The notes under the pieces: model-generated
The model's input: the letters and a program-made list of their open reading frames with translations, nothing else
What the model was told of the DNA's origin: nothing
The model's database searches: none
Origin: a virus
Reading direction: 5' to 3' (one strand)
DNA: 29,302 bases
IMG/VR virus record: IMGVR_UViG_3300044732_001250
Location: 1-29,302 of that record
Shown: positions 4,199 through 23,797 of the stretch, piece by piece
How positions within the stretch are numbered: position 1 is the stretch's first letter
How the letters are laid out: every line of letters begins with the position of its first letter
Position numbers and translations under genes: made by a program

Positions 4199-4406
4199 AT
4201 CAGAGCCATTAGAAGGATTTAAGCATTATAAAACGTGTAGGTGTGGCGGTTCATTGCAATACAGATACGAGAACATAGAATATCCAGCCAACAAGTATTG
4301 GATATATCCAACAAAGGGACAGGTAAGAATATTTAAAGACAATAGAACGGTAGGAACTTATCCATTGAGTAAATTAAAAGAAAAAATAGTCGAATATGGC
4401 ATTTAA
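4191..4406 (+). CDS. Hypothetical protein (71 aa)
   Basis: Unrecognised soluble protein. ATG 4191 overlaps the previous gene's stop region by 8 bases and its end overlaps the next gene by 11. The N-terminal part has CRCGGS (residues about 18-23), after which come many aromatic residues (YRYENIEYP, KYWIYP). The two close cysteines could form half a metal site. A longer frame with an upstream non-ATG start exists but is less likely. Confidence 0.6.
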   Translation: MSKSEPLEGFKHYKTCRCGGSLQYRYENIEYPANKYWIYPTKGQVRIFKDNRTVGTYPLSKLKEKIVEYGI

Positions 4407-4980
4407 AGCATTAAAAAACAAATTTAAATCATTGTTTACACGTTTTCCTAAAGATGTGAAATATCCTATTAAAGAGGCGTTCACTATTGAAGGCAGAACT
4501 TTTTACCAATTTGAAGACACGTTTAATATTCCATATCAAAGAGGATTAAAGACAGTTACTTTCTATGAAGAAGCGAGAATGAAAATAACGTATGAGTATT
4601 TAGAACAACACACCAAAGCAATTGACAAAATACTTAGCTCTCAAAAGATAGACGTATTTAAAATAAAAGCGTTGCACGATATATTAAAGGAAAGAATGAA
4701 GTGGTATTGCGATACCGATATAATGTATAAATTAGCATCTGTTGTATTCTTTGAGAAAGGAGACAATCCTACAACATACGACTTTAAGAAAGGTGCTGAA
4801 AATATAGAGTTTTGGAAACAACATAAATCTGTTTCCGATTTTTTTTACCAAGTGCCTTTGTTGCAATTGTTTCCGTTTTTGACCGAATTAGAAGTGAATT
4901 TGGAGATTTATTCGGAAATAACAAAGGCACTGACCAAACAGCATTCGGATTTGGTTACTTCTATTCTGTCCGAAAAGTAG
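4396..4980 (+). CDS. Tail assembly chaperone, unshifted form (194 aa)
   Basis: It lies just before the tape measure, the usual place of the lambda gpG-type tail assembly chaperone, and it contains a frameshift signal at codons 148-150 (GAT TTT TTT TAC). The first 150 residues are helical and charged (for example KAIDKILSSQKIDVFKIKALHDIL). After the slippery site the unshifted frame encodes 44 more residues with a Leu- and Pro-rich start. Their codon use (TTG, CCG) is less like neighbouring genes because the stretch is dual-coding. The protein would hold the tape measure during tail tube polymerisation. The family cannot be named from sequence; the call rests on synteny and the frameshift. Confidence 0.7.
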   Translation: MAFKALKNKFKSLFTRFPKDVKYPIKEAFTIEGRTFYQFEDTFNIPYQRGLKTVTFYEEARMKITYEYLEQHTKAIDKILSSQKIDVFKIKALHDILKERMKWYCDTDIMYKLASVVFFEKGDNPTTYDFKKGAENIEFWKQHKSVSDFFYQVPLLQLFPFLTELEVNLEIYSEITKALTKQHSDLVTSILSEK

Positions 4981-5156
4981 AATCGGAAATAAGAGAACTT
5001 CAATTAAATTTTGTTGGACATGATGAGTCCAAAATAGAATCATTAAAAAACATGACTATTTATGAGTTTTATTTTTCGTTAAACTCTAAGCGTCAACAAA
5101 ATTTAAAAGACAATGAAATATCTAATAGAGTTAGTAGCAGACCCCAAAGGACTTGA
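4396..5156 (+). CDS. Tail assembly chaperone, -1 frameshift product (about 253 aa)
   Basis: After a -1 slip at 4845 the ribosome would read 103 further codons to TGA at 5154-5156, overlapping the tape measure start by 44 bases. The -1 frame is open from 4827 and has no ATG until 5051, so it cannot be a normal separate gene of this length. Its product is protein-like: GFGYFYSVRKVESEIRELQL, then NMTIYEFYFSLNSKRQ. It also explains the apparent 132-base gap between 4980 and 5113. In lambda the equivalent G-T product bridges tape measure and tail tube. Expression ratio cannot be judged here. Confidence 0.75.
4839..4846 (+). promoter_or_regulatory. Programmed -1 ribosomal slippery site (T8)
   Basis: Eight T residues set as GAT TTT TTT TAC in the zero frame, giving the canonical heptamer T TTT TTT (X XXY YYZ) at 4839-4845. 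Both P- and A-site tRNAs can re-pair with TTT after a -1 slip. It sits upstream of a 103-codon open -1 frame that fills the space before the tape measure. I did not identify a downstream pseudoknot. Confidence 0.75.
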
Positions 5157-7341
5157 GCCAGCAATCACTGCAATAGATGAACTTAACCAAGCGGAAAAGG
5201 AACTAAAAGCCACAACAAGTTCCGTAAGTTCAGAGCAAAAGAAAATGATGGATGATTACGCTGCAAAAGCGAAATTAGGAAAAGCTTCAGTAGATAAACT
5301 AATGGATGGCTATAAGCAGTTAGGAAAAGCTGCAACAGGTGCGTTTGGTGGCGAAGCTATTAAAGGCGCAACTAAACAAGCAGAATCATTCCGTACACAA
5401 TTAAAAAATTCACGTGAAGAATTAACTAAATTATTTGTAAGCGGAAATGCTACAACGCAACAAATATATGAAGCTGCAAGAGGTGCTGGTAATTTAAAAG
5501 ATAATATCGGAGATGCGCAACAAGCTATATCTGTTTTAGCAAGTGATACATTCAAATTAGATGCAGCATTGCAAGGCGTTCAAGTTGGTGCTGCTGGATT
5601 TCAGGTAATGACAGGTGCGGCAGCATTGTTTGGTGTAGAAAGTGAAGAATTACAAAAGACATTAGTAAAGTTGAATGCTATAATGGCAATCACTAACGGA
5701 CTGAAACAAATTCAGGACGGATTGCAGAAACAAACTGCACTTAGTTTGGGTTTGAATATAGCAGCACAAAAAGTTTATTCTGTTGTTGTTGGACAAAGTA
5801 CAGGTGCTATGAAAGGCTTTAAAATTGCACTTGCATCTACTGGAATAGGTGCTATTATTTTGGCTATTGGTTATTTAATAGCGAATTTTGATAACTTAAA
5901 AACATCAAGTGGACTGATAGGTAAATCATTTAGAGCAATAGGTGATATTGTTAATATGGTAATTTCTGACATTAAACGACTTACAGATACATTAGGACTG
6001 ACTGAATTTGCACACGATGAATTTGTAAAAAGGGTATCTGAAAATAATGATATTATACTTTCTAAAATGGAAAAAGACCATAAAAGAAAGTTGGCTATAA
6101 TGGAAATACAAGGTAAGGAAACACTTAAAACACAACTTAAGTTTTTACAAGAAGAATTAAAGCAGTCAAGAAAAAACAATGAATGGGATGATGAACAAAC
6201 TGAAGCAGGAAAAGAAAGAATTGCTAAACAGACAGAACTTGAAGAAAGTATTATTTTATTAAAAGCAAAGATAGCGCAGAAAGGCATTGATGATTCAAAA
6301 AAGGCACAGGAAGAAGCAGATAAAAAAAGAGACGAAGCTGAAAAGGAAAGAATAAAAAAATTAAATGATGATAATGATGAAATATTAAGTAATATTGAAA
6401 AATACTTAGAAAAGGAAAATAAATTAAGGGAATCATACAGAGATGCTGAAAAGGATAATGATGAAAAATGGAGAAAAGAACTAAACGAAAGAAATGATGA
6501 AACACTTAATAGTATTGAAAAATATTTAGAAAAGGAAAGCAAATTAATGAAATCATATCGAGATGCTGAAGATGAGTATGATGAGAAATGGAGAAAAGAC
6601 AAAAAAGATAAGGAATTAGCCATTAAAGAAGCGAGTATTCAGATAGCACAACAAACTGCAGATGCAATATTTACAATAGCAAATCAAAGACGTAACGCTG
6701 AATTTAACTTACAGATACAACAGTTAACTGACTTAAAAAACAAGGAATTAGCAAATAAAGAGTTAACAGATGCGCAAAAGGAACGTATTGAATTAAGGTA
6801 TCAAAGACAAGTTGCAGCTATTAAAACAAAACAAGCACAAGCAGATAAACAGGCTGCAATTGCACAAGCTATTATTAACGGTGCATTAGCAATTACTAAA
6901 CTTTGGGTAAGTCCTGGCTTTCCAGCAGCTATTCCGCTTGCAGCAGTAGTAGCAGTAACAACGGCAGCACAAGTAGCTATAATAGCAGCACAGAAAATAC
7001 CTAAGTTTGCTAAAGGAACTGAATACGTTCAAGGCGGTGGTACTGAAACAAGTGATAGTGTACCTGCCATGTTATCTAAAGGCGAAAGGGTAATTGATGC
7101 TAAAACAAACAAGCTATTAAAAGGCATTCCAAATAAAATGTTGCCACAGTTATTAATTCCTGACGTATCGAGTGCAGTAAACGGTAGTAATTTCGATTAC
7201 AATAAAATGGCAAAAGTATTCAGTAAAGAGTTGGCTAATAATCCTGCTTTAATGGTTAACTTTGATAAAAACGGTTTTAATACATTCATAAAAAATGGCG
7301 TTACGGTATCGCAAATAAAAAACAATAGAAATGGAGTTTAA
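5113..7341 (+). CDS. Tail tape measure protein
   Basis: Sets tail length and is ejected into the host with the DNA. At 742 aa it has long coiled-coil stretches, a hydrophobic helix near residues 236-258 (GIGAIILAIGYLIANF), a second hydrophobic region near residues 580-630 (AQAIINGALAITKLW and AVVAVTTAAQVAIIAAQ), and a C-terminal segment (FAKGTEYVQGGGTETSDSVPAMLSKGERV) of a type seen at the ends of many Bacteroidota phage tape measures. A 40-residue unit (NDEILSNIEKYLEK and NDETLNSIEKYLEK starts) is tandemly repeated from residue 421. ATG 5113 lies within the end of the chaperone frameshift product. The next gene overlaps by 11 bases. Confidence 0.9.
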   Translation: MKYLIELVADPKGLEPAITAIDELNQAEKELKATTSSVSSEQKKMMDDYAAKAKLGKASVDKLMDGYKQLGKAATGAFGGEAIKGATKQAESFRTQLKNSREELTKLFVSGNATTQQIYEAARGAGNLKDNIGDAQQAISVLASDTFKLDAALQGVQVGAAGFQVMTGAAALFGVESEELQKTLVKLNAIMAITNGLKQIQDGLQKQTALSLGLNIAAQKVYSVVVGQSTGAMKGFKIALASTGIGAIILAIGYLIANFDNLKTSSGLIGKSFRAIGDIVNMVISDIKRLTDTLGLTEFAHDEFVKRVSENNDIILSKMEKDHKRKLAIMEIQGKETLKTQLKFLQEELKQSRKNNEWDDEQTEAGKERIAKQTELEESIILLKAKIAQKGIDDSKKAQEEADKKRDEAEKERIKKLNDDNDEILSNIEKYLEKENKLRESYRDAEKDNDEKWRKELNERNDETLNSIEKYLEKESKLMKSYRDAEDEYDEKWRKDKKDKELAIKEASIQIAQQTADAIFTIANQRRNAEFNLQIQQLTDLKNKELANKELTDAQKERIELRYQRQVAAIKTKQAQADKQAAIAQAIINGALAITKLWVSPGFPAAIPLAAVVAVTTAAQVAIIAAQKIPKFAKGTEYVQGGGTETSDSVPAMLSKGERVIDAKTNKLLKGIPNKMLPQLLIPDVSSAVNGSNFDYNKMAKVFSKELANNPALMVNFDKNGFNTFIKNGVTVSQIKNNRNGV
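6373..6603 (+). repeat. Tandem 120-bp repeat inside the tape measure
   Basis: Two in-frame units with a 120-bp period (6373-6492 and 6493 onward). Each encodes a 40-residue, Glu/Lys-rich coiled-coil unit with NDE, IEKYLEKE, SYRDAE and DEKWRK in the same order. Synonymous differences (TAC/TAT, GAA/GAG) and amino-acid changes show that the duplication is not recent. Unit gain or loss here would change tail length. Confidence 0.85.
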
Positions 7342-9723: not shown

Positions 9724-11547
9724 TTGGTTTTGAATATTATAAGTCCTGAATTTAGTTTCTTAGATTTTAATTATAATGAGTATTCAGATACATGCGATGC
9801 TGAACATTTAAACGTATTGCCAGCGTGTAATGACTTAGGAATTAAAGCACAAATTGAGATTCAAACGGATGAAGACTTACCAACAACAACACCTATCTAC
9901 ATAGCCATTGCTGATTCAGATTGTAACGTTATTTACGATGCTGACATTGAAGTAACTCCGATATGTTCACTATATAAATTTTATACTGATTTTGAAGGCG
10001 ATGAAGTATTGGTAACAAATCCTTACAACCTTTGCAACACGGATAACGATACACCTACCGAAACAATTGAGTTTATAACAAATCCTTTTGATGAAATTAC
10101 AAGTACGGATTTGGAATTTGATATGATATCAGCAACACTTGCTACTGAATTGCAGATATATTGTGAAAATAAGATTTATATAATAAGAAGAAATGATGGT
10201 GGTGTTATTGGTTATACCTATACACAAACAGAAGATGTTTATATTGTTTATATAGAGGGTACGGTTGCATCAAATAGGGCTTTTATATTAAAAGCATTTC
10301 TTAATGAAGTATTTGACGTAAATCACGGCACAACGTCAACTTATTCAGGTGTAACTGTTAATATAGCAAATATTCCTGCTGGTTCTTATTTAAATAATTA
10401 CGGATTAATAGGTAATATTTCAACAGTAACGGCATCAACAAATACTGGTAATTGGTTTTATTGGAAAAATAGTAAAATAAACTTTTCTTTTACAAACCAA
10501 ACCGTATCTGATGATATAGTTTATTCTTTTGAAGATACATTAAGCGGTAGTAACGTTTATTCTTTTAAGTTCTATTATACGTCTATCTATAACGATATGA
10601 CAGGTAGTATATCGTTTGATGACGGTACAAATCCGCCAACAGTTATTAACGTTAATTTCGATAGTTATGACGGATTCGTAGAAGTGGACTTTCAGGCGAC
10701 ATTAAATCCGTGTACAATATCAATAAACGTAGATAACAACAATCATATAAACGGAATATCATTTTACAAGATAGAAAAATACGATACACTACTCTATAAC
10801 GTAACCAACAACATAAGCGGAAACGTGCCAGTAGCAGTTTATAGCAGAGCAGAATTAATTGCATTGATTAGTGACTTATTAGGCTTTGATTTTGACTGTG
10901 AGTTTACATCTTGTTGTACAGTCCCAGACATTGAATTTGATATAACACTACCAAACGATGATAGTGTTTACCATTATACACTTACATCATATTGGAGAAA
11001 AGGATTTATAAATTTTCCTGAATTGCCATTAGAAACAATTATTCCTGAATGTTTTACTTATGCTATATTAGACAGTAATAAGGATTTGGTAGCGTGTAGC
11101 AATCTATTTGAGAAAGTTGAGGATTGTTGTTTTGTAACAAAGATTGAATACTCAAACAATGAAGATGCATTCGGGTTTACATATCCAACAGGCGTGACAA
11201 ATAGCGTTAATTTTCCGTTCTTTTTACACAGTCCACAATATCCAACAACAGAAAAGATATACAAACAAACAAACGGACAGTATAGGCGTTTAAGTGCTGA
11301 CATTGAAAAGGAATACGAATGTGAAACAGACTACATTCAGGAGTCATACCATGATAAGCTAATAACAGCATTAAAACACGATACATTAATTGTTACATCA
11401 AATCGTTTAGGATTTACAACTCAAATGAGCCAACAAGGCGACTATTCACCTGACTGGAATAGTAAGATAGAATTTACATCTAAAGCAGAATTTAAACTAA
11501 AAAAATACTTTAATGGAAAAAACAGCAACTGCGGTGCAAACTGCTAA
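9724..11547 (+). CDS. Large structural protein, probable tail/virion component (607 aa)
   Basis: Unrecognised at family level. It is long, beta-rich and full of Asp, Asn, Thr and Tyr, with cysteine clusters (FTSCCTVPD, EDCCFV, NSNCGANC). Near the C-terminus a region with FGFTYPTGV, FFLHSPQYP and LSADIEKEYECETDY recalls structural proteins of Bacteroidota phages, followed by a strand-rich end (FKLKKYF). No ATG lies near the N-terminus: an in-frame TAA at 9703-9705 bounds it and TTG 9724 or TTG 9730 are the plausible starts. First gene after the terminator and promoter. It overlaps the glycosyltransferase gene by 35 bases. Role could be fibre, baseplate or head decoration. Confidence 0.7.
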   Translation: MVLNIISPEFSFLDFNYNEYSDTCDAEHLNVLPACNDLGIKAQIEIQTDEDLPTTTPIYIAIADSDCNVIYDADIEVTPICSLYKFYTDFEGDEVLVTNPYNLCNTDNDTPTETIEFITNPFDEITSTDLEFDMISATLATELQIYCENKIYIIRRNDGGVIGYTYTQTEDVYIVYIEGTVASNRAFILKAFLNEVFDVNHGTTSTYSGVTVNIANIPAGSYLNNYGLIGNISTVTASTNTGNWFYWKNSKINFSFTNQTVSDDIVYSFEDTLSGSNVYSFKFYYTSIYNDMTGSISFDDGTNPPTVINVNFDSYDGFVEVDFQATLNPCTISINVDNNNHINGISFYKIEKYDTLLYNVTNNISGNVPVAVYSRAELIALISDLLGFDFDCEFTSCCTVPDIEFDITLPNDDSVYHYTLTSYWRKGFINFPELPLETIIPECFTYAILDSNKDLVACSNLFEKVEDCCFVTKIEYSNNEDAFGFTYPTGVTNSVNFPFFLHSPQYPTTEKIYKQTNGQYRRLSADIEKEYECETDYIQESYHDKLITALKHDTLIVTSNRLGFTTQMSQQGDYSPDWNSKIEFTSKAEFKLKKYFNGKNSNCGANC

Positions 11548-12373
11548 AGGAATCCTATTAATAGCAATCGGTTCAAATGAATACTTGGAAATGGCTAAAA
11601 ACTTAGCTATGTCAATTAAACACTTAGAGCCTGAAATGCCTATCTGTTTAGCGCATAACTACAATTATATAGACAAGTCTTTATTTGACTTTGAAGTAAA
11701 AGTTCCTAATGAAAGTTGGAATACAAAAGGCAAAATCGAATACATAAAAGTAAAAACGTGGATGTATGATTTTTCACCATTTCAGGAAACTATTTTTTTG
11801 GATGTTGATATGGTTTGGTTATTTTCAAAAAAGCCTTCAGAGTTATTTAATCAATGCATTGGATTAGATTGGACTATGTCAAACACAGGACTTGCAGGAT
11901 ATTCAATTTGGTGCGATATAAACGATATTAGAAAAATTTACCCTGATGTTATGATGTGGAATTATCACAGCGAATGTGTGTATTTTAATAAATCTGAAAA
12001 GACTAAAACGTATTTTGATACCGTAAAAGATATGTATTTAAATCCACCTGTTAAAGGTACTAAATTCGGTGGCGCATCAATTGCAGATGAATTAGCTTTT
12101 CAGTTAGCATCATTAAAATTAAATGAATTTCCACACAAAGAAAACTGGTTGCCGATATTTTGGTATGCACGTGATAAAAGAACAACACACTTACAACCAT
12201 ATAAATTAAGTGAAATATACTTTGCATATTCAGTAGGTGGCAATAAGTTACCGACAGTTATTAAGAACAATTTTTCAACTATATCAAACTATCATTCTAA
12301 AATGAGTAAGTTAGGCAAGCCATATAAGATTAGAGATAAAAAATCATTCATTCCTGAAAGACGTAGTTTATGA
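11513..12373 (+). CDS. DxD-motif glycosyltransferase (GT-A fold, GT8-like)
   Basis: Cytoplasmic sugar transferase. The N-terminus ILLIAIGSNEYLEMAKNLAM starts a nucleotide-binding fold; the metal/UDP-sugar DxD motif occurs as FLDVDMVW with D97 and D99. Further on are NTGLAGYSIW, a typical acceptor-side loop, and a late ADELAF segment. At 286 aa it appears complete. It is not similar in motif layout to the GT25 enzyme at 360-1025, so the phage carries two different transferases. It overlaps the upstream structural gene by 35 bases and the portal by an ATGA. The acceptor could be a virion protein or host glycan; the close link to structural genes favours virion, as inference. Confidence 0.75.
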   Translation: MEKTATAVQTAKGILLIAIGSNEYLEMAKNLAMSIKHLEPEMPICLAHNYNYIDKSLFDFEVKVPNESWNTKGKIEYIKVKTWMYDFSPFQETIFLDVDMVWLFSKKPSELFNQCIGLDWTMSNTGLAGYSIWCDINDIRKIYPDVMMWNYHSECVYFNKSEKTKTYFDTVKDMYLNPPVKGTKFGGASIADELAFQLASLKLNEFPHKENWLPIFWYARDKRTTHLQPYKLSEIYFAYSVGGNKLPTVIKNNFSTISNYHSKMSKLGKPYKIRDKKSFIPERRSL

Positions 12374-14175
12374 CACCAATAGAACAAATAAATATATTTA
12401 ACCACCACGATGATAAAATAAAGTGGAATATAAAAAAAGATGCTTTAAAACTTTATAAAGCGTTAAAGACTCATGCAGACGGATTAGTTCCTGAAGAAAT
12501 AATCAGAGAACGCAGACCGAATGAGCCTGATGCTATAATGGATTACAGGTTTAAAATCTACGCACCAAAAACGGAACACCCGATTTCTAAGGTAATTACT
12601 TCTTTGAGTAAAATAAGACGTTCACCTGATTGGAAAGTGAATTACGATAAAACAAAAGAGCCTGCATTTTTAGAAACGGCAAATAAGACATTAAAAACAT
12701 ATTTAGAAAATGAATATCCTATTTATGACAATATAGATTCATGGTTGTTTGATGAGTGCTTACAGAATATAATGATAGATGCAAATGCTGTTGTTGTTAT
12801 CGTTCCATTGTCGTATAATATTCAGGTAGGTGAATTTTATAAACCAATTCCGTTTATTGCTAATGTTGACGAAGTTATTTATTACAAAGAAAATGACTAT
12901 ACAATAGTAAAAACAGATAGAGATTATGAATACAAAGATGAAAGCGGAAAGCGTGAATATGATATACATATTTTATCAACAAGAAACGAGATAGTAGAAT
13001 ATGTAATTTTAGAAACAAAAGGGCAAAAGGTATATTTAGAATTAAATAGACTTCAACATAATTTTGATGAATTGCAGGCTTTCCGATTTAGGGGTTTATT
13101 CTATAAGAATGAAGACGGTGATATTATTTGGAAGACACCTATAAATTCAATGGTAACGCATTTAAACGAAGCAGCACGTATGTATTCAGATTTACAAGCT
13201 GAATATGTTTTACACATGCATTCGGAAAAATGGACTATTAACACCAATACTTGTAAGAAGTGCAACGGAACAGGCAAAACAAAAGTAGGTTTGGCAATGT
13301 CAAATTCAACGTGTGGAACTTGTAACGGTAGCGGTTATGAAACTGTTTCACCTTTCCAAAACAGGGTAATTAATTTAGACTTAAATAGACCGAATAGCCA
13401 AATACCACCAATACCACCAGCAGGCTATATTCAAAAGAGTATAGAGATAGCACACTTATTAAGAGATGCTGTTAAAAGCAACTTATACGAAGCATTAGAG
13501 GCGGTTAACATGCAGTTTCTTTACAATGTTCCAATAAATGAAAGCGGAATAGCTAAACAATGGGACAGAGATGAAACGGATAACTTTGCACATAAGGTTG
13601 CAGGATTATTAAAGTACGTTCGTGAAAATGTAGATTACTATACTTGTAATTTGCGTTATGGCTTTTTAATTCAGGATGCAAAGACACGTGAGGAAATGCT
13701 ACCGAAAATTAGTATTCCACAAAAATACGATTTAGTAAATAATGCGTTATTGATTGAAGAATATAAACATGCTAAAGATGCAAATTTAAGTCCCGTTATA
13801 TTAGCGTCAATGGAAATGGAAATATCTTTAAAGCGTTTCACTCATGATTCTGATGTAAGCAAATACACTATGTTGGTTTACAAGTTAGACCCTTTATATG
13901 GTGTTTCTGAAGATAATAAAATGATGCGTTTGCAAAATAACGGTATTACAGAAAAAGACTATGTAGTTAGTTCTAATATTCAAAAGTTTGTGCGTAAAGC
14001 ATTGATAGAAGATGAAGAGTTTGCATTTAAAGGATATGAAGAACAAGTGGCTATTATGAATAAATATGCAGATGAAGTGATGAGAGAAAATAGTATTAGT
14101 ACAGATTTATTAGCACCTTTACAAGATGCACGTAAACAATTAGGAACGCCACAAATAATTCAATCAGAACAATAG
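12370..14175 (+). CDS. Portal protein with embedded zinc-finger-like motif
   Basis: Called as portal from its size (601 aa) and place just before the MuF-like, scaffold and capsid genes. The protein is helix-rich and shows portal-like features such as a YRFKIYAP segment near the N-terminus, a long helical middle, and an acidic helical C-terminal region rich in Lys/Glu. Unusual is a pair of CxxCxGxG repeats, CKKCNGTG at residues 295-302 and CGTCNGSG at 315-322, as in the zinc-binding domain of DnaJ. The portal ring forms the DNA entry channel, docks TerL and joins the tail. It starts in an ATGA overlap with the glycosyltransferase. Confidence 0.8.
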   Translation: MTPIEQINIFNHHDDKIKWNIKKDALKLYKALKTHADGLVPEEIIRERRPNEPDAIMDYRFKIYAPKTEHPISKVITSLSKIRRSPDWKVNYDKTKEPAFLETANKTLKTYLENEYPIYDNIDSWLFDECLQNIMIDANAVVVIVPLSYNIQVGEFYKPIPFIANVDEVIYYKENDYTIVKTDRDYEYKDESGKREYDIHILSTRNEIVEYVILETKGQKVYLELNRLQHNFDELQAFRFRGLFYKNEDGDIIWKTPINSMVTHLNEAARMYSDLQAEYVLHMHSEKWTINTNTCKKCNGTGKTKVGLAMSNSTCGTCNGSGYETVSPFQNRVINLDLNRPNSQIPPIPPAGYIQKSIEIAHLLRDAVKSNLYEALEAVNMQFLYNVPINESGIAKQWDRDETDNFAHKVAGLLKYVRENVDYYTCNLRYGFLIQDAKTREEMLPKISIPQKYDLVNNALLIEEYKHAKDANLSPVILASMEMEISLKRFTHDSDVSKYTMLVYKLDPLYGVSEDNKMMRLQNNGITEKDYVVSSNIQKFVRKALIEDEEFAFKGYEEQVAIMNKYADEVMRENSISTDLLAPLQDARKQLGTPQIIQSEQ

Positions 14176-17550: not shown

Positions 17551-18507
17551 ATGAAATGTTTAGAAGGGTACATTGGTGTTGGAGTTAACTGTCAAACGGA
17601 AGAATCCGTTAGTGGCAAATATTTAACAGACCTCGCTGGTGTTACCCTTCAAAACATAGATGCTGTTGCAAATGCAAATCAGTTATCATTTTTAGGTGTG
17701 TTTGCAGATGTACAAAAAAGAGCAATTTCACGTTTAAGTAAGGATGTGTTAGCATATATGAAAACGCAATACAATTTTAAAAAAATTGTAAATACATACT
17801 TTACAAATGGAGAATTAGGAGATACAACAAGTTCTTTGAATTTAAAAAATGGTGTTAGGCTTCAGTCTTTTGAATGCGAAAGCGAGTTACTAAGATTTCA
17901 TGTAAGCAAAGTTTACTTGTATGCATTAGAAGAGCAAATTACTACTATCTATATTTATTCCGATAAGATATTATTGTACAGTCAAGCGTTAATAACTAAA
18001 ATAGGATGGAATGAGATTTATGTAAATAAGTCTTACGATACATTAGATATAGTTGTTGCTTATGATAGTTCAGTATTTGAAGAAGTTAAGAAACTTGTAT
18101 TTGATGATACTTTGTGTGATTGCCTCTGCGATGATTGTGACGATGTATTTAAACAAGCTATACAGTTCGATACAATAGACGATATAGTACAAGTTAATAA
18201 CACTTACGGATTAAAAGTTGACGTGTCTTTAAGATGCTTATATGACTCGATTCTTTGCGCCAATATAGATGTTTATTCAGATGCTTATTTATATGCTTTA
18301 GGAATGGAATTAATGCGTGAACGTATTTATTCAGATAGAGTAAACAGATTTACAACGGTTGACAAAAAACGTGCTGAAGAGTTATTGCAAATGTACACTA
18401 CTGATTATACGGAGTTTTTACAAACGGCAAACGATAGTATTAGAATTGATAATGATTATTGTATAGAGTGTTTAGAGATTTCAGGAACTGAATATGTAAT
18501 GCCATGA
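17551..18507 (+). CDS. Head-tail connector/virion protein candidate (318 aa)
   Basis: Lies immediately after the capsid gene, where head-completion or adaptor proteins occur, but at 318 aa it is larger than a simple adaptor. The N-terminus MKCLEGYIGVGVNCQ is followed by helical and beta parts, and there is a striking cysteine/Asp cluster CDCLCDDCDD near residues 190-200 with further cysteines (CLYDSILCAN, CIECLE). Such clusters could bind metal or form disulphides. It ends in an ATGA overlap with the next gene. The family is not recognised. Confidence 0.6.
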   Translation: MKCLEGYIGVGVNCQTEESVSGKYLTDLAGVTLQNIDAVANANQLSFLGVFADVQKRAISRLSKDVLAYMKTQYNFKKIVNTYFTNGELGDTTSSLNLKNGVRLQSFECESELLRFHVSKVYLYALEEQITTIYIYSDKILLYSQALITKIGWNEIYVNKSYDTLDIVVAYDSSVFEEVKKLVFDDTLCDCLCDDCDDVFKQAIQFDTIDDIVQVNNTYGLKVDVSLRCLYDSILCANIDVYSDAYLYALGMELMRERIYSDRVNRFTTVDKKRAEELLQMYTTDYTEFLQTANDSIRIDNDYCIECLEISGTEYVMP

Positions 18508-19034
18508 TAGCGTTTAACAGCAACGGAAAAGATGTATTAGATGCAATTAAAGCAGACTTAAAAGGTAAGGCAAGTCCACAGGAAACGGATAAGCTATTAA
18601 GAACTATTGCAAGTACATTGACAGGAATGATGCGTGATAGAGTACACGTGCAAGGCAAAGATTCTAATGATAACCAAATCGGTACTTATTCAAGTGAATA
18701 CATGAAAGTGCGAACAGGTAATTTTAAAAGTTCTAAAATTGTAAGAGGTGTTAACAAAGGTAATGCACGAAAAAAGTATAACAGGACAAGTGACACAAAA
18801 GTAATTTTATCATTAACTCGACAAATGGAAAATGATATGTCTATTTGTGAACGCAATCCAATAAAGATACCATACGGATATGCAATAGGCTACCAAAACG
18901 ATTTTAATTTTGAAAAGTTGACATGGCTTGAAAAGAAATATAAAAAGCAGATTTTAACTAAGTTATCAAAGCATGAGGAGCAGTTAAAAGACGAAATTGT
19001 AAACAATTATCTAAATGATAGAACAACTAATTAA
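18504..19034 (+). CDS. Neck/virion morphogenesis protein candidate (HK97 gp10-like)
   Basis: 176 aa. Has the look of a virion morphogenesis or tail-completion protein: an N-terminal helix with LLRTIASTLTGMMRDRVHVQ, then KDSNDNQIGTYSSEYMKVRTG, a pattern that recurs in phage neck proteins. After it comes a Lys-rich part (KKYKKQILTKL). Its position, between the capsid-adjacent protein and a tail-terminator candidate, agrees. It joins head and tail. The call is moderate. Confidence 0.6.
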   Translation: MIAFNSNGKDVLDAIKADLKGKASPQETDKLLRTIASTLTGMMRDRVHVQGKDSNDNQIGTYSSEYMKVRTGNFKSSKIVRGVNKGNARKKYNRTSDTKVILSLTRQMENDMSICERNPIKIPYGYAIGYQNDFNFEKLTWLEKKYKKQILTKLSKHEEQLKDEIVNNYLNDRTTN

Positions 19035-20775: not shown

Positions 20776-22667
20776 GAAAATTAACGACAATATTATTATT
20801 ATTATTTTCATTGTCTGCACAGTCGCAGATAGTTAATAAGTTCAGGGATTCGACATGGTTTGCAAAGGGTGTGCGTTTTGATAGTGCAATCTATTTAATA
20901 AAAGGTGCATCCAATGGAAAGGTTTTAACTTCGGATGCAAACGGTCGTGCAACATGGCAAACGTTTTCAGGTTCAGGTGTAACACAAAGTACTTTAAATG
21001 ACTCAATTAGTGCGGTTCGTTCGATACGTAAAGTAGATACACTTTACAGAAATTTAGATAGCTTAATATTTAAGATTAATGGTATTCGATATGCTATTAT
21101 AGATAGTTCGGGCGGGGGTGGCGGTTCGCAAGATTTGCAACAAACACTTACAAACGGAAATACAACAGGCGGTTTTAATATCAGTATATCAAATGGTGAT
21201 GCTATTATTTTAGATAATGGTTCAATGTTAAAAAAGGGAACTATTGATGCTGGATTGGGTGGCGTTAATGGTATTGCTCAAATATGTGCGGTTGGTTACG
21301 AATTAAAATGGGAAGCGGGGCGGTTGTATGTAATGGGCAGTAATGGTAATACAATAAGACAATCGCTATATAACTTCACCACTACACCTACTGTAAATGA
21401 TGACAATTTAAAAGGATATGGAATTGGTAGCTTATGGACTTTAGATGACAATACAACTTATTTATGTACGGATGCTACAACGGCTAATGCAGTTTGGAGT
21501 TTGATTAATGATTCAATTTACTTTAATAGAACGTATGCACAACTTAGAGCGCAAATGTCAGCACATACTTTAGTTGAGGGCGCTACTTACAAGTTAACAG
21601 ACTTTGCAACCATTTATGACCAGTCATTAAGTGCAGTAACTAAAACTGCGAGTGGTGAAGTGATAGTTTTAGTAGCAAATTCAGATAGTACATTTTCACC
21701 AATAGTGAGTTCATTAGACTTTCCTACTGATATAATTCATTACGATATTACGATAGATACTACTTATATAAATGGTGCGCCATGTAAGGGAAAGATAACT
21801 TATCGTAAAGATGCAAATGGGAACTCTACTTATTTTGATTTCAGAAAAGTTTTGATGGTAAATTATAATGATTCAACAGAACAGTTATTTTTTGATTTAT
21901 CAAAATTAGTTACAGGTAATGATATGCCGTTTACAAAAGAATATGGACTGTCTTTTGGTATTAATGCTGTTGAATTTCCAGCATCTTTTTTTAAAGATAA
22001 TGTTTATCAAAATAGTAATAATTATTTTGCTGCTTCATACTTTAACGGAGAGGTAACGCAGAATACAGGAAACACTATTTTAGCTTCTAATTTCGGAGGT
22101 GAATTTATACAAAATTTTGAATTAGAAATAATAGAATGTGTTTTTGATTCTATTTTGCAGTATAGTGGTGAGGGTTCTTGGAGCAATTCTATTTTTCATA
22201 GTGCAGTAAACAAGGTGGTAAGTACAAACTTTAATTATACGGAAGTAGATGGATTGATAGACCGTATATTTCAAAGTGGTTATTTATACGATACTATACA
22301 AGGTAGGTTGTATTGGTGTGTTGGTATATATATGTACGCTTGTAATATTGATGGTGATTTTAGCGGTGTAAATGAGTGTGCATGGGTTCAAACTCGTTCT
22401 AATTGTAATGTTGAAACTATAAATGGTATTTCACACCAATCTGTAAAAATAGGCTTTAAAGATTGCACTATAACAGGAACTTCAGGTTCTTCAGATTTTG
22501 GAAATATAAGAATAGATTGTTTAGTGGAAAGTAAGATAATTTCTGAAGCATTATACCCTGAACTATTTGATACAAGTTACGCTAAAACAATTTTTAAAGG
22601 CAGTAACGGAAGTGTTTACTATACATATTACAATGGTTTAACTTATGTAATTAATGAGATTATATGA
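20772..22667 (+). CDS. Tail-fibre-like protein with signal peptide (631 aa)
   Basis: The N-terminus MRKLTTILLLLFSLSAQSQ is a Sec-type signal peptide: two basic residues, a hydrophobic run and a small-residue cleavage region near residue 19. After it comes a fibre-like beta-rich protein with short repeats, Gly-rich linker SSGGGGGS (about residues 111-119), and long stretches of Asn, Thr and Ser that suggest a beta-helix or fibre shaft. Residues 88-119 (VDTLYRN, GIRYAI) resemble a module in the next gene. It ends in an ATGA overlap with that gene. Probable role is host recognition, or if exported a cell-surface protein. Confidence 0.65.
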   Translation: MRKLTTILLLLFSLSAQSQIVNKFRDSTWFAKGVRFDSAIYLIKGASNGKVLTSDANGRATWQTFSGSGVTQSTLNDSISAVRSIRKVDTLYRNLDSLIFKINGIRYAIIDSSGGGGGSQDLQQTLTNGNTTGGFNISISNGDAIILDNGSMLKKGTIDAGLGGVNGIAQICAVGYELKWEAGRLYVMGSNGNTIRQSLYNFTTTPTVNDDNLKGYGIGSLWTLDDNTTYLCTDATTANAVWSLINDSIYFNRTYAQLRAQMSAHTLVEGATYKLTDFATIYDQSLSAVTKTASGEVIVLVANSDSTFSPIVSSLDFPTDIIHYDITIDTTYINGAPCKGKITYRKDANGNSTYFDFRKVLMVNYNDSTEQLFFDLSKLVTGNDMPFTKEYGLSFGINAVEFPASFFKDNVYQNSNNYFAASYFNGEVTQNTGNTILASNFGGEFIQNFELEIIECVFDSILQYSGEGSWSNSIFHSAVNKVVSTNFNYTEVDGLIDRIFQSGYLYDTIQGRLYWCVGIYMYACNIDGDFSGVNECAWVQTRSNCNVETINGISHQSVKIGFKDCTITGTSGSSDFGNIRIDCLVESKIISEALYPELFDTSYAKTIFKGSNGSVYYTYYNGLTYVINEII

Positions 22668-23797
22668 AAAGATTAATATTTATATTGTTTTTTTTTAACG
22701 TTGCTTATTCGCAGTCTTATTTAGCTAAGTCGGTAAATAATGTTAATGCTGATAGTTCAGGTAATATTACTATATCCGTTGGTGGTCGGGTTGTTGATAC
22801 CATTTACAAAAACAGTGCAAAAGATAGTATCGTGTTTGCAATTTCAGGAGTTAGATATGCGGTTCAAGATTCAATAGGCGGGGGCGGTGCATCATTAAGC
22901 GGTTTAACTTCGGCAACGGCAACGAATACAATTAACAATACTAACTATAAACAACGTTGGCAATGGAACTCAATAGGTGCTGATAGTGCTTTCGTTTTAG
23001 AAACAGTAAGCACAACGGCAGCGAGTAGCTTACAGAACGTTTTTACAGCTATATCAAGGGGTGCTAATGCAACTTCAGGGCAGACAACAAGAACAGGTAT
23101 ATTCAGCAACACACACACAGGAACGACAAGCACAAATATAGCTTTACAATTAACTGCGAGTGGTGCGACAACTAATAATGCGCTTAACATAACGGCTGGT
23201 AATATTCAACTGGTATCGGGTTCATTTATTAACTTTTTATCTAATACACAGCGTATTGGTTCATTAAGTGGATTTTTACAATATGATGCTGGGACATCAC
23301 AAAATATAATGATTAGTACAAGCACATCACCAGTTTGTGTAGTTACTACCACAGGAAGCAATTATTTGACTTTTGCAAAACCTTCATCTGGTACGAATGC
23401 AATTGTATTTAATGGCGATTATATAAGCGGTTCGTACAGAGGTGAGTTGACTTATTCAAACGTAATAAAAACGGCAAATGGTCAAATGGATTTTTGTGGA
23501 AATACAGGTCAAGCGGGTGGATTTGGTTCATTCACTCCTTCGGAAATTCTTACTATAAAAGGAAGTACAACGGCAGCATTAGGAAGTGTTGGCATAGGTA
23601 CGACATCTCCAGTTGCAAGTGCTAAGTTACAGATAAACAGTACTACAATGGGGTTTTTACCACCGAGAATGACAACAACGGAAATTAACGCCATAGTATC
23701 TCCAGCGGAGGGTTTAATAGTATATAATACAACATTGCATGAACTTTGTTTTTACGACGGGACAGGATGGCGTAAGTTTTCACATTCAAATATGTAA
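22664..23797 (+). CDS. Tail-fibre-like protein with signal peptide (377 aa)
   Basis: Begins MKRLIFILFFFNVAYSQSY, a second Sec-type signal. Residues 44-77 carry the same module as the preceding protein (VDTIYKN, GVRYAV, DSIGGGG). The middle is rich in Thr, Ser, Asn and Gly, typical of fibre shafts. The C-terminus (GSVGIGTTSP, LPPRMTTTEINAI, GLIVYNTTLHELCFYDGTGWRKF) is a receptor-binding/fibre end common in Bacteroidota phages and secreted adhesins. The GIGTTSP and FYDGTGWRKF pieces are the recognisable marks. It closes the fibre group. Confidence 0.7.
   Translation: MKRLIFILFFFNVAYSQSYLAKSVNNVNADSSGNITISVGGRVVDTIYKNSAKDSIVFAISGVRYAVQDSIGGGGASLSGLTSATATNTINNTNYKQRWQWNSIGADSAFVLETVSTTAASSLQNVFTAISRGANATSGQTTRTGIFSNTHTGTTSTNIALQLTASGATTNNALNITAGNIQLVSGSFINFLSNTQRIGSLSGFLQYDAGTSQNIMISTSTSPVCVVTTTGSNYLTFAKPSSGTNAIVFNGDYISGSYRGELTYSNVIKTANGQMDFCGNTGQAGGFGSFTPSEILTIKGSTTAALGSVGIGTTSPVASAKLQINSTTMGFLPPRMTTTEINAIVSPAEGLIVYNTTLHELCFYDGTGWRKFSHSNM

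Follow-up and report, generated by a model that had tools for sequence, protein, structure and literature searches.

A conserved T run and a probable frame slip in a candidate family of tail assembly chaperone genes

The closest described system is the G/GT pair of phage lambda, whose biology has been reviewed and in which the two products stand at a ratio of 30:1 (PMC5009743). There, a gene lying directly 5' of the tape measure gene gives a short form and, through a slip site close to the 3' end of that gene (PMC5009743), a form with a −1 C-terminal extension that has no start codon of its own; the products are small helical proteins. Ribosomes of Escherichia coli also shift on U UUU UUU, less than they do on A AAA AAG (PMC5009743). 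Proteins of two lengths are likewise obtained by transcriptional slippage, as in Thermus dnaX with its A9 run, Shigella mxiE and spa13, and tssM with A9 or A11, where the run sets the ratio of the two lengths without stimulatory signals (PMC1088944, PMC5009743, PMC4256274). Selection in bacteria against runs prone to slippage acts most commonly at a length of nine, and eight is apparently productive in some of them (PMC1088944).

A two-frame gene before the tape measure gene

We analysed a stretch of 29,302 bases, IMG/VR virus record IMGVR_UViG_3300044732_001250 (hereafter the window), which probably derives from a phage of a Bacteroidota host. On its plus strand, a gene at 4396–4980 with a predicted product of 194 residues lies directly 5' of the tape measure protein gene at 5113–7341 (plus strand), which matches PHROG tape measure families with E values down to 2e-12. 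A T8 run at 4839–4846 (plus strand), read GAT TTT TTT TAC, contains U UUU UUU as a zero-frame heptamer. No stop interrupts the −1 frame over the 103 codons that lead from 4845 to a TGA at 5154–5156 (4845–5156, plus strand); the sole ATG of this frame is codon 70, leaving the first two thirds without one. Three stretches can be told apart along this frame, all on the plus strand: 4845–4980, in which both frames are coding and 44 zero-frame codons and a stop follow the second Phe; 4981–5112, read in the −1 frame alone; and 5113–5156, where the opening 44 nt of the tape measure gene are also read in the −1 frame. The fused product of the two frames has a predicted length of about 253 residues. 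Near-identical IMG/VR contigs from four other metagenomes likewise carry T8.

An earlier sequence-only reading had proposed this layout, and its placement and phase of the run, its gene order and its account of the −1 frame, from length and scarcity of ATG codons to both overlaps, all held on re-examination. It had also said that both ends of the protein come from one stretch; the dual coding stands, but it is better put that one piece of DNA encodes the C-terminal end of the short form together with the initial ~45 residues of the T-like domain.

The likeness to lambda G/G-T that had been drawn holds for gene position and layout, that is, a gene directly 5' of the tape measure gene giving a short form and a −1 C-terminal extension without a start codon, and, by model, for small helical proteins. 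In sequence or fold, no significant homology was detectable. An AlphaFold model of the short form gave a small helical fold, a beta-hairpin followed by helices, with a pLDDT of 85, and the model of the −1 domain was of low confidence (pLDDT 72). Searches of Pfam, PHROGs, NCBIfam, PDB and BFVD with the chaperone protein gave no significant match; two BFVD rows, low in the ranking and short of significance, bore the name tail assembly chaperone, and fold searches with the short-form model returned generic helical matches only. Given the position before the tape measure gene, the short form with its −1 extension and the helical fold, the comparison supports the locus as a probable functional analogue of lambda G/GT. 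The slip site itself is of another kind, a T8–T10 homopolymer in the window's family and G GGA AAG in lambda. It also lies 39–72 codons 5' of the zero-frame stop in the family, whereas in lambda the site falls close to where G ends (PMC5009743). Unlike in lambda, a major tail protein gene was not identified beside the chaperone gene of the window, the genes 5' of it being TerL and small unassigned ORFs.

We consider it about 90% probable that this single gene yields two tail assembly chaperones by slippage from the zero to the −1 frame on its T run. Most translation would give the 194-residue, G-like short form, and a minority of events would slip at the run to give the GT-like form, whose last 103 residues are modelled as a helical C-terminal domain. 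That there are two products, in what ratio, and which proteins they bind is inferred. In lambda, G attaches to the tape measure and T to the major tail protein, neither being present in the virion; by analogy, both forms would use their common N-terminal part to cover the tape measure protein, the T-like domain would bring in the tail tube protein, and the efficiency of the slip would set the proportion of short to long form. The kind of system is known; the novelty lies in its protein family, in its homopolymer slip site and in an overlap whose dual coding is conserved and long (unusually so relative to lambda, the one system compared in this respect). The assignment adds a putative family of tail assembly chaperones in Bacteroidota phages, whose −1 domain is split or overlooked by gene-calling programs.

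Elsewhere in the window, we observed a direct repeat of about 126 bp (6354–6479 and 6474–6599, 83% identical) within the tape measure gene, likely a step in tail length change. A large ORF at 12370–14175, between the tail and head genes and portal-like by position, carries at residues 292–323 a DnaJ-type zinc-binding stretch, CxxCxGxG, which scored below the cut-off for PF00684. Two ORFs, at 360–1025 and 11513–12373, look glycosyltransferase-like by eye from their translations, one of them lying between the tail and head genes.

The run and both reading frames in relatives

Together with the window, the family comprises 23 further sequences (some of them close pairs) from viral contigs and Bacteroidota genomes, with identity down to ~37%. 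Relatives about 70% identical (L014/L017 and L015) were reached through relatives of the terminase; their run, at the matching codons, is T9, and their −1 frame is conserved. Another, L026 (38% identity), came from a protein scan. A DNA pattern for FWK-x6-DFF, which left the Phe codons free to be TTC and required T only as the leading base of the codon that follows both Phe, gave 16 more members, close pairs counted, from viral contigs and from genomes of Dysgonomonas, Prevotellaceae, Azobacteroides and Chitinophagaceae. Seven members came from protein or profile searches that made no use of the DNA pattern, and all carry the T run; L091 and L094–L096 came from a profile search of genome families that was blind to the run. 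Translation showed some matches of the pattern to lie in unrelated bacterial genes, and these were discarded; a pattern of the wrong spacing produced a single chance match, and the first weak tblastn match over the fusion (H34, E 0.8) proved to be an ordinary bacterial gene. Tblastn of the searched records found no members in cultured phages, and about 785 Bacteroidales/Bacteroidota genomes, drawn regardless of the family, held none beyond the seeds.

A run of T8–T10 occupies the same codons in all 24 members, as T9 in 22, T8 in the window and T10 in L091, these lengths being read from metagenome and genome assemblies, where homopolymer lengths can be wrong. The heptamer U UUU UUU, of the form X XXY YYZ, stands in the zero frame in 23/23 members tabulated, and their two Phe codons are TTT in 46 of 46 cases, compared with 62% TTT elsewhere in the genes. 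Matches to T8 are rarer in the window than chance would give (8 against 22.6 expected from shuffles). The T8 run is unremarkable by itself, and its conservation, judged by comparing sequences, exceeds chance. FWK-x6-DFF with T9, located 5' of the tape measure gene, makes up a recognisable signature for finding the family. A separate T9 run of the window, at 22688–22696, lies in the N-terminal signal-like stretch (MKRLIFILFFF...) of an ORF at 22664–23797.

The two-frame layout recurs in 23 of the 24 members; the exception is L091, where T10 at 1944–1953, at the same codons as the other runs but longer, puts both parts in a single frame of 250 residues while the zero-frame tail is still open in another frame. 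This may reflect a natural switch of the default product or, alternatively, an assembly indel.

In 20 of 23 members, namely the window and 19 of 22 others, the next gene 3' of the −1 frame is a tape measure homologue. In L030 (truncated) and L095 no ORF was found there in the available sequence, and in L051 another gene follows, which indicates that the chaperone can move away from the tape measure gene. The neighbour of this member, which itself lies at 1421–2163 of L051, resembles the window's ORF at 18504–19034.

The overlap of the two frames spans 39–72 zero-frame codons (118–217 nt) across 23 members, and in 23 of 23 examined the −1 frame has no stop codon within it. Control frames in the same members behave otherwise, with 3–8 stops in the +1 frame across the overlap and 2–10 in the −1 frame immediately 5' of it. 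When the zero-frame protein was recoded with its own codon usage, the −1 frame stayed open by chance in 1.65% of trials for the window and in 0–16% for the others, so that a single genome taken alone is weak evidence. The comparison of members is stronger on this point. At conserved residues, relatives differ in synonymous codon at 39% of sites upstream of the run, at 21% in the overlap and at 2% in the codons of DFF(L/Y). The Fisher p for upstream against overlap, 9e-13, is only indicative, because the compared pairs share branches and are not independent. Pooled pS falls from 0.65 upstream to 0.35 in the overlap, and this drop in zero-frame synonymous change, by half, begins exactly at the run. 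The stretch read in the −1 frame alone has a pooled pN/pS of 0.47 and keeps the motifs FG and T-I-Y-E-F-[YF]...LN. The zero-frame tail past the slip is conserved as well (Q.P...L.P.L, pN/pS 0.41), which argues for the short form as a genuine product, more than the outcome of a slip that fails. Comparison of the relatives therefore shows that both frames are under selection as protein, as read from their substitution patterns, and the 118–217 nt of conserved dual coding form a clean natural case of two-frame constraint. The checks that the sequence-only reading had called for, namely conservation of the run, synonymous-site constraint on both frames, and the lack of −1 stop codons and of single uninterrupted frames among relatives, came out in its favour, with L091 as the qualification to the last.

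The level of the slip and other readings

A programmed −1 frameshift had been proposed. The run and the conservation of both frames uphold a programmed slip; the ribosomal level does not follow, since a ribosome slipping by −1 is inseparable by sequence from an RNA polymerase that adds one U. For the T8 of the window we lean slightly towards ribosomal −1 slippage on U UUU UUU. In programmed transcriptional slippage, the polymerase would add one U, or drop two, on T8–T10, and an unshifted ribosome would make two proteins identical to those of the ribosomal model. Run-length variation and the A8–A11 runs of a second chaperone family, kept at a G/T-like junction in cultured Bacteroidota phages and varying in length so as to flip the default form, make this a serious rival, to which we give somewhat less than even odds.

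Several observations bear on the choice. The T9 of 22 of the 24 members exceeds what the heptamer needs and matches the commonest length that bacteria select against (PMC1088944), but it may stem from a conserved Phe in the −1 frame, and the window has T8 only. A conserved downstream stimulatory RNA structure was not found, with z near 0 in most members and below −3 only in the window and L015, and no downstream RNA structure matched Rfam, such structures being common in canonical −1 frameshifting without being obligatory; the lack of a conserved stimulatory structure would suit a slipping polymerase, as would the T10 of L091, in which the fused frame is the default. Against it, the canonical U UUU UUU stands in the right frame in every member with a tabulated junction, and the run lengths that argue for the polymerase are themselves open to assembly error. 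The known transcriptional slippage genes resemble the window's family in having an A/T homopolymer of about nine at the junction; their proteins are unrelated to it, and RNA heterogeneity, demonstrated in those genes, is a possibility in the family. With this locus one can test whether RNA polymerase, and not the ribosome, may determine a G/GT ratio.

It is very improbable that the −1 frame is a separate gene with its own start or with re-initiation after the zero-frame stop. Small phage genes often overlap and are coupled, and the window does have an ATG at −1 codon 70, but no ATG, GTG or TTG of the −1 frame is shared across the members and several have none at all, which makes independent initiation unlikely; moreover, constraint on the −1 frame begins at the T run, 39–72 codons 5' of the zero-frame stop. 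Less probable still is that a real gene of one frame is concealed by decay or by an indel from sequencing or assembly. Homopolymers are prone to indels and L091 does read as one frame; against this, five near-identical assemblies agree, the two-frame layout recurs in 22 further members with T9, and the conserved zero-frame tail (pN/pS 0.41) is under selection. Least credible is dual coding by accident, which the 1.65% chance of opening would allow for the window alone but which, like indel or decay, is refuted by the relatives, with their open −1 frames (23/23 tested), conserved residues and halved synonymous change.

A second chaperone family with homopolymer runs

The second family, phrog_8914, surfaced when we sought the gene 5' of the tape measure gene in cultured Bacteroidota phages. 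Its members include gp56 of Parabacteroides phage PDS1, the Bacteroides fragilis phage B124-14 type and Flavobacterium Fpv8, and some of the records are annotated as tail assembly chaperone. Every member read carries a run of A8–A11 at the codons for VKKK or FKKK (L097, PDS1 gp56, at 1972–1981; L100; L106–L118). In most of them, with A9, A10 or A11, a single frame spans the whole protein, and after a shift in either direction a stop comes within 0–30 codons; in BF8P1 (A11, its nearly identical relative VA7 having A10) and P2559S (A8) the C-terminal part is instead in the +1 frame. Such flips with run length favour slippage by the polymerase in phrog_8914, judging from assemblies in which homopolymer lengths can be wrong.

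Like the window's family, phrog_8914 belongs to Bacteroidota phages, is encoded just 5' of their tape measure gene and has a homopolymer at a G/T-like junction. It differs in that the run is A8–A11 and not T, and in that the long form is usually the unshifted one, which a slip would truncate. The N-terminal domains of the two families cannot be aligned. The last ~50 residues of the −1 domain align weakly to those of phrog_8914 (hhalign E 1.9e-4, probability 48%), whereas over full length the window's family gave no match to the PHROG profile, apart from one member with a weak one (E 0.036). Our literature search found no paper on the slip runs of either family.

A broader proposal, which we hold tentatively and think rather doubtful, is that Bacteroidota phages generally set the ratio of short to long chaperone by homopolymer runs through polymerase slippage and not by lambda-type frameshifting, with changes of one base flipping the default while both products are kept. 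Under that proposal, the default would be the short form in the T8–T10 family and usually the long form in the A8–A11 family of phrog_8914.
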